Assembly (NCBI GenBank): GCA_016935095.1 | Contig: JAFGRO010000004.1 | Span: 1 to 45,150 of the forward strand | Length of the DNA: 45,150 bases | DNA from: Candidatus Woesearchaeota archaeon | GTDB lineage: Archaea > Nanobdellota > Nanobdellia > Woesearchaeales > GW2011-AR15 | Direction of reading: 5' to 3' | In this document: positions 38,226 through 41,236 of the stretch, piece by piece | Numbering within the stretch: the first letter of the stretch is position 1 | Layout of the letters: the number at the start of each line of letters is the position of its first letter | The notes under the pieces: generated by a model | What the model saw: only the letters and a program-made list of their open reading frames with translations | The model's database searches: none | What the model was told of the DNA's origin: nothing | Translations under genes and position numbers: made by a program

Positions 38226-38553
38226 GTCACAAAACTTTCATGAAATCAAAGGAGCTTTTCTGGACATAATCTCAAAAAGCAATTCTCAGCTTAATGAATC
38301 CATAATCAATATACTCCCTAATATGGAATATTTCATTCAATTAAATATTAAAAACAAGGACTTTCTTCTTGTCATATTAAAAAATCAGGAAAAAAATAAA
38401 TTTAGAATAAGACAAATTGAAACTAATTCAGATAATGAATTCAAGATCTCAAGAAAAATAGGTTCTGAATATAAAGAAATTCAACTTGACGATTTTGATT
38501 CGCTGGATGATGCTTTGGATATGATCAGAAAGATAAATCAGCGAAAATTTTAA
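38212..38553 (+). CDS. Unknown 113-residue protein coupled to the RHH gene
   Basis: An alpha-beta protein with strands FIQLNIKNKDFLLVIL and KFRIRQIE and an acidic end (LDDFDSLDDALDMIRKI). No PIN, RelE, HEPN or GNAT signature seen. Overlap with the RHH gene suggests one transcriptional and possibly functional pair. Its stop codon lies inside the TATA box of the thr leader. Confidence 0.5.
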   Translation: MKNNRSQNFHEIKGAFLDIISKSNSQLNESIINILPNMEYFIQLNIKNKDFLLVILKNQEKNKFRIRQIETNSDNEFKISRKIGSEYKEIQLDDFDSLDDALDMIRKINQRKF

Positions 38554-38555
38554 AT
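38548..38555 (+). promoter_or_regulatory. TATA box of the thr leader transcript
   Basis: TTTAAATA, centred 28-29 nt before the ATG at 38580, the same distance as at the PAC2, SAM-hydrolase and other leaderless genes of this window. Confidence 0.55.
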
Positions 38556-38579
38556 ATCAGCTATAAATTAAAATGTCAC

Positions 38580-38654
38580 ATGCATTCAGTAGAAGCCTTG
38601 AAAACAGGAATTTCTTTAACTACTTCTACTACTACAACTACTACTACCTGCTGA
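38580..38654 (+). CDS. Threonine-codon leader peptide (thrL-like)
   Basis: 24 codons. Codons 14-23 are Thr-Thr-Ser and then seven Thr in a row (ACT, ACA and ACC), followed by Cys and TGA; codon 9 is also Thr. The gene downstream makes threonine precursors. This is the layout of thrL-type leaders, in which ribosome position at Thr codons sets transcription into thrA. The stop codon lies in the loop of the following hairpin. A longer Tyr/Phe-rich frame from the ATG at 38573 is the antisense-free +1 shadow of the same ACT run and fits the promoter distance less well. Confidence 0.65.
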   Translation: MHSVEALKTGISLTTSTTTTTTTC

Positions 38655-38677
38655 CGCAGGTCATTGGTCTTTTTTTT
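38646..38677 (+). terminator. Attenuator hairpin and U-tract before thrA
   Basis: ACCTGC/GCAGGT, a 6-bp GC-rich stem with loop TGAC, then 8 nt and a run of eight T (38670-38677). The stem begins at the last Thr codon and the leader stop is in its loop, so a ribosome on the leader must affect folding. The gap between stem and U-tract is longer than in bacterial terminators; archaeal termination, however, depends mainly on the U-tract. Confidence 0.6.
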
Positions 38678-38755
38678 CTGAAATTTTGTATGAATTTCTA
38701 AAAATTATTTTTCAGGGAAAATGATAATAAAAAATCAGACAAAGGGGAGGAGAAC

Positions 38756-41236
38756 ATGATTGTGTTAAAATTCGGGGGAGCATCTTTAAGAGATTCAGAT
38801 AATGTAAATAACGTAATTGAATATATCAAGAAAGTACAAAACAAAAATCCTGTTGTTGTAGTATCTGCAATGAAAGGCGTAACAGATTTATTAATAGAGA
38901 CAATCAATTATTCCGTAAATAAAGAAAATGAAAAAATAACTCAGAATCTTAATTTACTGAAAAAAAAACATGGGACTGTTGTTAATGATTTAATAAAATC
39001 AAACAAGATTAAAAATACAGTCCTTGATTATCTGGATAATAATATTTCTGAATTAAACTCATTATTCAACAGCATATCAATTTTAGGAGAGAGCACACCT
39101 AAATCATATGCTTACATTGTTTCTTTCGGGGAAAAGCTCTGCTCTAAGATAGTTGCATCTATTCTGCTGGACCAAGGCATGAATGCAGAGCAGATTACCG
39201 GAGAAGAGACAATTGTTACTGACAATAACTATGTGAATGCTTATCCTGATTTTGAGCTTACAATAAAAAGGTCTAGAGAGATCATCCCTGATAAAATTGA
39301 AAAAGGCATTCTTCCAATTGTGGCGGGATTTATAGGGACAAATGAAAATGGAGAAACAACCACCCTTGGAAGAGGTGGCTCTGATTTTACTGCTTCAATC
39401 CTTGCATATTGTCTTGATGCCGAGGAAGTATGGTTCTTAAAAGAAACCAATGGAATAATGAGTGCTGACCCAAAACTAGTAAAGAACGCAAAGACAATCA
39501 ATAAAATGAATTACAATGAAGTGGCGGAACTTACTTATTTCGGAGCAAAGATACTTCATCCTATTGCATCACACCCGCTAAAGGAGAAAAACATTAAATC
39601 GTTTATAAAAAATGTTTATAATTTTAACTTTCCCGGCACTGAAATAAATAATAAGAAACTGCAGAACGGAACAACAGCAAAAGCATTAACTTATATAAAA
39701 GATGTGAGTATAATTACTGTACAGGGCCCGGGAATGGTTGGCATCCCTGGGATTGCAGGAAGAGTCTTTACTTCTTTAAAAAGATCTAATATAAATGTCC
39801 TAATGATCTCCCAGTCAAGCTCTGAGCAGAACATATGCTTTGTTGTGCTAGGCAAAGAGGCTAAAAAGGCATTGGAATTATTAAACAAAGAACTTGAGCT
39901 TGAAATACTAAAAAACCAGATTGATGAAATTACTGCTGAAAACAATGTCTCAATCATTTCAATGGTCGGCGAGGGAATGAAAAACTCTCCGGGTGTTGCC
40001 GGAAAAATGTTCTCTGCTCTCGGCAATAATAACATAAACATAAAAGTAATTGCACAGGGCTCTTCAGAACTCAATATCTCATTTATAATTGAAAGCAGGG
40101 ATTTAGAGAATGCATTGAACTGTATTCACGATGAGTTTAACCTTGGAAAGAAAAAGACAAGAAACATAAACTTAGTTCAATTCGGATTAGGAAATATAGG
40201 GAAAGAACTTATTAATCAAATAATTCAAAGCAAAGAGCAGATAATCAAAGAGAATTATTTAAACCTGAGATACGTTGCATTGATTGACAGTGTTTCAGGT
40301 GTTTATAATCCAAAAGGCTTTTCAGACAATGAAATAAAAGAGATTTTAAAATTAAAAAATAAGGATAGTTCATTAAGAAATTCCAAATTTCACTTAGACA
40401 GAAATGTTATAACAGAAAAAATAAGGCAACTGGAAAATACTGTTTTAATTGACGTAACCAGTTCCTATGACCTTGACAATCTAATTTTAGATTGCCTGAA
40501 AAACAACATAAGCGTGGTATTGGCAAACAAGATCCCTCTTACAGGAGATTACAGCATTTATAAAAAATTGATTGAGCAAAGCAGGAAAAGCACTGCAAAA
40601 TTATTCTTTGAATGCACTGCCGGCGCCGGCCTTCCTGTCATATATATCCTGAAATCACTTCTTGATTCAGGAGACCAGATTATTGAAATCAACGGCTGTT
40701 TTTCAGGAACCCTCGGCTATGTCTTCTCGGAATTAGAAAAAGGGATTAAGTTCTCTGAAATCATAAAAAAGGCAAAAGAGCTCGGCTATACAGAACCTGA
40801 TCCAAGAGATGACCTGTCCGGATTAGATGTCGCAAGAAAAGCATTGATTCTCGCGAGGCTCATGGGAGAAGATATAGAACTTTCAGATATTGAGATAGAG
40901 AGCCTTGTGCCAGAATCTCTAAAACAATGTTCAGTCAGGGAATTCCTTGAAGGGTTAAACAAATATGACGCCAATATGCTTACAAGATATAACAGGTCAA
41001 AGGAAAAAGGCTCTACCCTGAGATATGTCGCCGTGATTAAAAAAGGAAAAATAAATGTCGGCATAAAAGAAGTGCCTCTGGATTCACAAATCGGGATGCT
41101 GAAAGGCCCTGCGAATATCTGCATTATCACGACAAAAAAGTATAATCTCTTCCCTCTGGTTATTCAGGGACCGGGAGCGGGAATTGATGTGACTGCAGAC
41201 GGTGTGCTGAGAAATATCCTCGAGGCGAGCAAATGA
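38756..41236 (+). CDS. thrA: Bifunctional aspartokinase / homoserine dehydrogenase
   Basis: 826 residues, the length of bacterial ThrA. Aspartokinase domain residues 1-300 (VLKFGGASL at the start, TTLGRGGSDFTAS near 205). Two ACT domains follow at ~315-460 (ITVQGPGMVGIPGIAGRVF, then ISMVGEGMKNSPGVAGKMF), the usual threonine-binding region. Homoserine dehydrogenase occupies ~470-826 (NAD loop VQFGLGNIGKELI, catalytic region GCFSGTLGY, EPDPRDDLSG). It catalyses the first and third steps from aspartate to threonine and methionine. The fusion is typical of bacteria and unusual in archaea, suggesting transfer. A strong GGGGAGGAG site precedes the ATG. Confidence 0.95.
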   Translation: MIVLKFGGASLRDSDNVNNVIEYIKKVQNKNPVVVVSAMKGVTDLLIETINYSVNKENEKITQNLNLLKKKHGTVVNDLIKSNKIKNTVLDYLDNNISELNSLFNSISILGESTPKSYAYIVSFGEKLCSKIVASILLDQGMNAEQITGEETIVTDNNYVNAYPDFELTIKRSREIIPDKIEKGILPIVAGFIGTNENGETTTLGRGGSDFTASILAYCLDAEEVWFLKETNGIMSADPKLVKNAKTINKMNYNEVAELTYFGAKILHPIASHPLKEKNIKSFIKNVYNFNFPGTEINNKKLQNGTTAKALTYIKDVSIITVQGPGMVGIPGIAGRVFTSLKRSNINVLMISQSSSEQNICFVVLGKEAKKALELLNKELELEILKNQIDEITAENNVSIISMVGEGMKNSPGVAGKMFSALGNNNINIKVIAQGSSELNISFIIESRDLENALNCIHDEFNLGKKKTRNINLVQFGLGNIGKELINQIIQSKEQIIKENYLNLRYVALIDSVSGVYNPKGFSDNEIKEILKLKNKDSSLRNSKFHLDRNVITEKIRQLENTVLIDVTSSYDLDNLILDCLKNNISVVLANKIPLTGDYSIYKKLIEQSRKSTAKLFFECTAGAGLPVIYILKSLLDSGDQIIEINGCFSGTLGYVFSELEKGIKFSEIIKKAKELGYTEPDPRDDLSGLDVARKALILARLMGEDIELSDIEIESLVPESLKQCSVREFLEGLNKYDANMLTRYNRSKEKGSTLRYVAVIKKGKINVGIKEVPLDSQIGMLKGPANICIITTKKYNLFPLVIQGPGAGIDVTADGVLRNILEASK

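Follow-up and report, generated by a model that had tools for sequence, protein, structure and literature searches.

In a 45,150-nucleotide stretch of a Candidatus Woesearchaeota archaeon (contig JAFGRO010000004.1 of assembly GCA_016935095.1; this whole stretch is called the window), the gene thrA is preceded by a short open reading frame (ORF) rich in threonine codons whose stop codon lies in an RNA hairpin, and comparison of this leader across the sequences of draft genomes points to amino-acid-specific, ribosome-sensing attenuation in an archaeon, a kind of control so far described only in bacteria. The original prediction, made from the letters of this locus, had proposed a thr leader acting as an attenuator in an archaeon, and conservation, third-position variation, covariation and the matching of codons to genes strongly supported this core inference. 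We consider it highly probable that the thrA element is a cis-acting leader-peptide attenuator sensing charged tRNA-Thr, within a family of amino-acid-specific attenuators of one archaeal order. Their common layout consists of a leaderless promoter, a short ORF ending mostly in one amino acid, a stop codon in or beside a stem that joins the codons to the post-stop segment, a CAUUG motif, a U-rich tract and the Shine-Dalgarno sequence (SD) of the gene, whose function usually agrees with the codons of the leader.

As shown in Table 1, the leader ORF encodes MHSVEALKTGISLTTSTTTTTTTC (peptides are written up to their stop codons), and its 24 codons include Thr at positions 14, 15 and 17-23. The frame with its nine Thr codons, the stop in the loop of a 6-bp hairpin (ACCTGC-TGAC-GCAGGT in the DNA), the T8 tract, the strong ribosome-binding site and the ThrA fusion had all been listed in the original prediction and were all present, while the CAUUG motif, the outer pairing and the reach of the design beyond Thr were missing from it. 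The TATA-like TTTTAAATATC at about 38553 was 27 nt from the ATG at 38580, confirming the leaderless distance noted before. A competing ATG at 38573 opens an overlapping Tyr-run frame, and the leaderless distance of the TATA box from ATG 38580 favours the Thr frame. Most leaders in relatives were preceded by equivalent TATA boxes. The thrA product is an aspartate kinase-homoserine dehydrogenase fusion of 826 codons, matching NF006959 with 820 bits, above the cut-off. A LonB LID domain of archaeal type is encoded in the window, and archaeal LeuRS (TIGR00395) and HMG-CoA synthase (TIGR00748) elsewhere in the genome, indicating that the host is an archaeon; the thrA leader has the make-up of an archaeal transcription unit, with a TATA box at leaderless distance in an archaeal host.

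Table 1 Positions of the leader elements and of thrA in the window.
Feature	Position	Strand	Basis
TATA-like box (TTTAAATAT), leaderless leader promoter	38549..38557	+	sequence; about 27 nt 5' of ATG 38580
Leader ORF MHSVEALKTGISLTTSTTTTTTTC	38580..38654	+	homologous Thr-run frames at thrA of G002 and G005 and about 24 thrS genes
Thr control-codon run, codons 14-23 (nine Thr and one Ser)	38619..38648	+	sequence
Outer helix, 38640-38643 with 38665-38668; Thr codons pair with motif region	38640..38668	+	RNAfold
Stop-spanning hairpin ACCUGC-UGAC-GCAGGU, TGA in loop	38646..38661	+	covariation, permutation of sides
CAUUG motif, 10 nt from first base of stop codon	38662..38666	+	fixed spacing across leaders; alignment A3
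U8 tract (T8 in DNA), candidate archaeal termination site	38670..38677	+	sequence; T-tract enrichment; PMC8716108
Shine-Dalgarno of thrA, GGGGAGGAG	38744..38752	+	sequence
thrA, bifunctional aspartate kinase/homoserine dehydrogenase	38756..41236	+	NF006959; Pfam AA_kinase, ACT, Homoserine_dh

A second mini-ORF, MIIKNQTKGRRT, was seen at 38721-38759 of the window, and its end is an ATGA overlapping the thrA start. Comparable mini-ORFs of 11-13 codons in G002 and G005 also end at the thrA-start overlap, perhaps for translational coupling.

A thrA of this kind was found in three of the ten genomes of the window's family, and all three carried the leader. As the original prediction had asked of related archaea, the Thr frame and the hairpin recurred in the two relatives, G002 and G005, with compensatory changes. 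The G002 leader encodes MNIIEVQNYNISLAFSTMMTTMTTTC with the hairpin ACCUGC-UAAG-GCAGGU, and the G005 leader encodes MKTIEVKNISILMTTSMTMATTC with the hairpin ACUUGC-UAAG-GCAAGU, in which a C:G pair has been replaced by U:A; the U-tract is weaker in both (CUCUUUAUUUC, GUCUUUCUC). Met codons are interspersed with the Thr codons in the two relatives, which fits an enzyme on the common Thr/Met path.

A first covariance model, built from the three thrA leaders and run on the window's family and 353 genomes of the order, retrieved regions upstream of thrS, the gene of threonyl-tRNA synthetase (ThrRS). In a set of 137 thrS upstream regions (genes located by protein search, with seven added for carrying a model hit), 23 regions contained a short ORF whose last 12 residues included five Thr or more, no such ORF lay on the reverse strand, and residues other than Thr were similarly frequent on both strands. 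About 24 species, spread over seven families (f1, f10, f25, f27, f42, f60 and f74) of this one archaeal order, had Thr leaders before thrS; the gene encodes an archaeal-type ThrRS in G194 and G072 and a bacterial-type ThrRS in the others. A second model, from 25 leaders, was run on a phylum sample of 371 genomes. It gave 19 matches above 36 bits, each of them before thrS or thrA (about 0.8 kb upstream in G151); matches with lower scores resembled simple repeats or noise, and in this one sampled search they were the only kind seen outside the order. Across the Thr leaders the frame was kept and the third base of the Thr codons was variable (ACT 99, ACA 69, ACC 23, ACG 5).

Other conserved elements were observed before thrS. 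Upstream regions of family f10 (for example L202, L179 and L215) share TTCAAYAAAATATATAAA between the leader U-tract and an SD-less thrS, likely a second promoter. Family f82 (L108, L110 and L116; G299, G298 and G300) has a different conserved element just 5' of thrS, GCCGUUGUUGGGCUGAUCCGGAGG, an SD-adjacent hairpin whose loop contains UGU, which is a Thr anticodon; by analogy with the E. coli thrS operator, it possibly serves ThrRS autoregulation. In family f7 (L099-L101, L103 and L106), L120 (G032) and L112 (G258), thrS follows short frames that are conserved and whose peptides end in FLDIFLLTTR or something close to it. Their Thr codons number just one or two, and they may be related to the Thr leaders by degeneration.

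The upstream regions of class I and class II synthetase genes from six genomes were inspected for leaders. Leu runs were found before leuS (for example MKLNGLDLLLLLVL and MIKYKILVLLL) and Val runs before valS (for example MYQLFKTVSVVVV), each in G000, G002, G003 and G005; Ile runs preceded ileS in G003 and G005, Met codons preceded metG in G002 and G005, and serS of G005 was a weak Ser case. No run leaders were seen at tyrS, trpS, glyS, proS or pheS in these six genomes, and the two f10 genomes had leaders at thrS only, among the synthetase genes examined.

We also scanned 1.09 Mb (61%) of the window's genome for leaderless short ORFs without regard to the gene behind them. The scan gave 1537 such ORFs, 598 with a downstream gene, and 33 of the latter had CAKTG within 33 nt of the stop. 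Among these 33 were the leaders of thrA, thrS, leuS, valS, cysK (MKPNQCCCC), argG (...SRFRRC), aspS (MANNNINNNNNDR), a DUF1015-class V aminotransferase fusion (MELICSSCSA) and an HMG-CoA synthase cluster. Runs of at least five identical residues in eight were present in 5 of the 33 ORFs with the motif versus 4 of the 565 without it (Fisher P 4e-5). A check in relatives of what the scan had predicted showed Cys-run leaders before four of the six cysK genes in the family (G000; G001, SCCCCCC; G002, ICCCC; G007, CCFCC), and the G002 aspS leader encodes MYINNNRDNDQ. Leu with leuS, Val with valS, Cys with cysK and Asn/Asp with aspS each recurred in at least two species of the window's family, and Arg (argG) and Ser (the DUF1015-aminotransferase fusion) were single cases. 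Taken together, codon-rich short ORFs were found for Thr, Leu, Val, Cys, Asn/Asp and Ile, and more weakly for Met, Arg and Ser. The HMG-CoA synthase/thiolase/HMG-CoA reductase/mevalonate kinase cluster follows a Leu-run leader, MKRILTLLLLLL (L337 15667, minus strand, G000:C21), with an 8-bp stem (GAAUACUC/GAGUAUUC).

Two further observations were made at these genes. Upstream of ileS in L280 (G000) and L279 (G002), palindromic TAGTATACTA/ACTAGTATA repeats stand in the position of the Ile leaders of G003 and G005 and may be a protein operator that replaces them. In L384, from 2077 onward (G000:C70), a DUF1015 fused to a class V aminotransferase has the Ser-rich leader in front, which suggests a role of DUF1015 in serine biosynthesis.

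The RNA stem across the stop codon was examined in alignment A3, and five of its six pairs were changed on both sides; a few 3' arms are off by one column in A3, so that covariation counts are conservative (the earlier alignment A2, made by covariance model and poor for weak members, was left out). The covariation score of the stem was 0.337 versus 0.137 ± 0.031 after shuffling (0 of 500), and it fell when the partners were slid. Swapping the post-stop segments among 42 leaders reduced the mean hairpin score from 10.2 to 3.8 ± 0.7 (P <0.0002; P 0.0014 for the non-Thr leaders alone), and codon runs paired better with the post-stop segment of the same leader than with that of a different leader (permutation P <0.0005), these P values being optimistic since related sequences are not independent. 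The 5' arm is predicted to overlap or precede the control codons in the cysK, aspS, leuS and HMG-CoA synthase leaders. The covarying stem and the pairing of run and post-stop segment could be disturbed by a ribosome on the codons or on the stop. The fold search in the leaders gave the stop-spanning stem and partial pairings of the 5' end only, with no canonical 1:2/2:3/3:4 set identified, and no consistent separate terminator hairpin was found between leaders and genes.

CA[U/G]UG begins 6-12 nt (median 10) past the first base of the stop in 38 of the 42 leaders (CAAUG and CAUCG being counted as variants), irrespective of hairpin, gene and amino acid; the motif was part of the selection of leaders from the own-genome scan and partly of covariance-model hits, and not of most thrS, leuS and valS cases. 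In G004 it was kept despite the lost hairpin. Given this spacing, the leading edge of a ribosome that has halted on the stop codon would cover CAUUG. With polymerase at the U-tract, whose end is a median 31.5 nt from the stop, the motif would also be close to the RNA threaded through FttA, since FttA touches RNA at 20-28 nt upstream of the 3' end (PMC11616081). A pairing between the leader's 5' end and CAUUG is suggested (P 0.003 for the family of the window and 0.0135 overall), yet it varies from leader to leader. CAUUG at fixed distance from the stop is a new candidate signal. As a general terminator of the genome the motif was rejected, the clearest intergenic occurrences with a T-tract being these same leaders. 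T-tracts followed 31 of the 42 leaders versus 15.8 ± 2.9 after shuffling, and an SD-like sequence stood at 17 of the 19 downstream genes examined, as expected if these genes are translated from a transcript starting at the leaderless leader. Sequestration of the SD by the post-stop tract was also tried and rejected, as its pairing with the SD of its own gene was no better than with the SDs of other genes (permutation P 0.45).

In archaea, terminators consist of U-tracts, which work without a hairpin and with help from aCPSF1/FttA (PMC8716108, PMC8116511), and coupled transcription-translation as well as U-tract/FttA termination have been described in archaea (PMC8116511, PMC8716108, PMC11616081). 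We propose that with plentiful amino acid the ribosome would complete the leader and depart, the stop-spanning stem would shut behind RNA polymerase, and transcription would stop at the U-tract, by termination that may be intrinsic or dependent on FttA/aCPSF1. With charged tRNA scarce, the ribosome would linger on the codon run, the 5' arm would stay covered, and polymerase would continue into the gene. That the ribosome does the sensing is very probably correct and that termination is the output is likely; the logic of the stem, closed for termination and held open by the ribosome for read-through, is tentative, with a chance slightly short of even. Regulated termination is favoured by the U-tract enrichment, the downstream SDs and the unsupported SD sequestration together. 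Given the position of the 5' arm in the cysK, aspS, leuS and HMG-CoA synthase leaders, a delayed ribosome would prevent the stem there, and the same would hold for a ribosome occupying most of the run in the Thr leaders, whose 5' arm is formed by the end of the run.

Several points weigh against this proposal. A recognisable leader is absent from most relatives in the order. The Leu leader at the HMG-CoA synthase cluster lacks an evident link to the products of the cluster and did not turn up in relatives. The G170, G157, G004, metG and serC leaders form weak stems or none, and 8 of the 42 leaders have no intact U-tract. In addition, a ribosome frozen on the first of the nine Thr codons would not touch the hairpin, which is the wrong sign; the original prediction had worried about this reversed logic, rightly for that frozen position, and the worry eases for the four leaders whose 5' arm overlaps or precedes the codons. 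The frozen-ribosome case is why we kept a rival in which the hairpin is an antiterminator: under starvation the stem, not covered by the stalled ribosome, would shield from FttA/aCPSF1 the RNA that this factor must thread, and in plenty the ribosome would melt it and FttA would terminate at the U-tract. The FttA contact zone of 20-28 nt (PMC11616081), with polymerase at the U-tract, falls on the segment with the 3' arm, and a stall on the first Thr codons would keep the stem uncovered as required, but a stalled ribosome would block the stem in the cysK, aspS, leuS and HMG-CoA synthase leaders, and we regard the antiterminator as unlikely. A slightly lower chance is given to translational control, in which leader translation would change ribosome access to the downstream SD without premature termination. 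It is compatible with the strong downstream SDs and with actinobacterial cys operon leaders that lack obvious terminators (PMC1262725); however, the SD-pairing permutation lent it no support, U-tracts are enriched, and the f10 thrS genes are SD-less yet keep the leader.

A functional small peptide, or direct binding of a protein or tRNA (T-box-like or ThrRS autoregulation), is very improbable. Peptides vary freely outside the residue run, no Rfam family, the T-box among them, was matched, and a single design serves several amino acids, against which stand some N-terminal similarity between thrA and thrS leader peptides and the UGU-loop hairpin of f82 at the SD of thrS. Low-complexity coincidence, an (ACT)n repeat reading as Thr beside a chance hairpin, has a negligible chance. 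In its favour, the run resembles a repeat, and models R1 and R2 also match simple ACT repeats elsewhere at low score. The comparative data refute it: third positions vary in a kept Thr frame, the hairpin covaries, matches precede thrS or thrA, and runs of other residues return at genes that match them.

In bacteria, leader-peptide attenuation is textbook knowledge, and in E. coli pheM-pheST a leader peptide with the cognate codon controls an aminoacyl-tRNA synthetase, in a bacterium and with different RNA anatomy. Enterobacterial thrL shares with the window's leader a Thr-rich peptide before thrA, a stop near RNA stems and a U-tract; in contrast, an Rfam search of window positions 38400-38800 found no Thr leader or T-box and only a chance match to another family (9.3 versus a 55-bit cut-off), no canonical alternative 3:4 terminator was identified here, and the leaders of the archaeal relatives combine Thr with Met codons whereas thrL combines Thr with Ile. 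The label 'thrL-like' in the original prediction therefore holds for the working principle and not for descent, given the lack of an Rfam match and of a canonical 1:2/2:3/3:4 set and the archaeal leaderless promoter. T-box riboswitches of Gram-positive bacteria share amino-acid-specific control of synthetase and biosynthesis genes, but they bind tRNA directly without a leader ORF.

The closest described design is that of the actinobacterial ilvB/ilvBNC leaders, where, in the part of PMC1262725 concerned, the control codons of the ilvB leader overlap a candidate terminator hairpin with poly-U and the same simplicity, with no evident separate antiterminator, is found. Those leaders are bacterial and that part of PMC1262725 has no CAUUG motif, whereas the leaders described here have an archaeal leaderless promoter and serve several amino acids. 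The Streptomyces leuS attenuator, from the same part of that source (PMC1262725), likewise has a leader peptide with the cognate codon at a synthetase gene, in a bacterium and with other RNA anatomy. Until a 2010 survey added Firmicutes, leader-peptide systems were, according to that survey, known from Proteobacteria and Actinobacteria only (PMC2965389). No earlier archaeal case appeared in the titles and abstracts that full-text searches of the open-access literature listed; subscription papers lay outside this scope, so priority is not proven. Chances are about equal, in our estimate, that the archaeal order independently evolved an attenuator regulon for some eight amino acids, with U-tract/FttA termination and the stop-anchored CAUUG replacing bacterial terminator hairpins.

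If true, conserved archaeal leaders would imply ribosome-RNA polymerase coupling tight enough for codon-by-codon sensing, archaea would have a means of responding to amino-acid starvation at their synthetase and biosynthesis genes, and the gating of FttA/U-tract termination by translation would become a directly testable question.

Apart from the leaders, the contig starts of L330, L379 and L395 (G000) carry an identical repeat (CTAAAAAAAGCTATGC...CTCAGCTGATTGAGGGACAT), which is probably a repeated element breaking the assembly.
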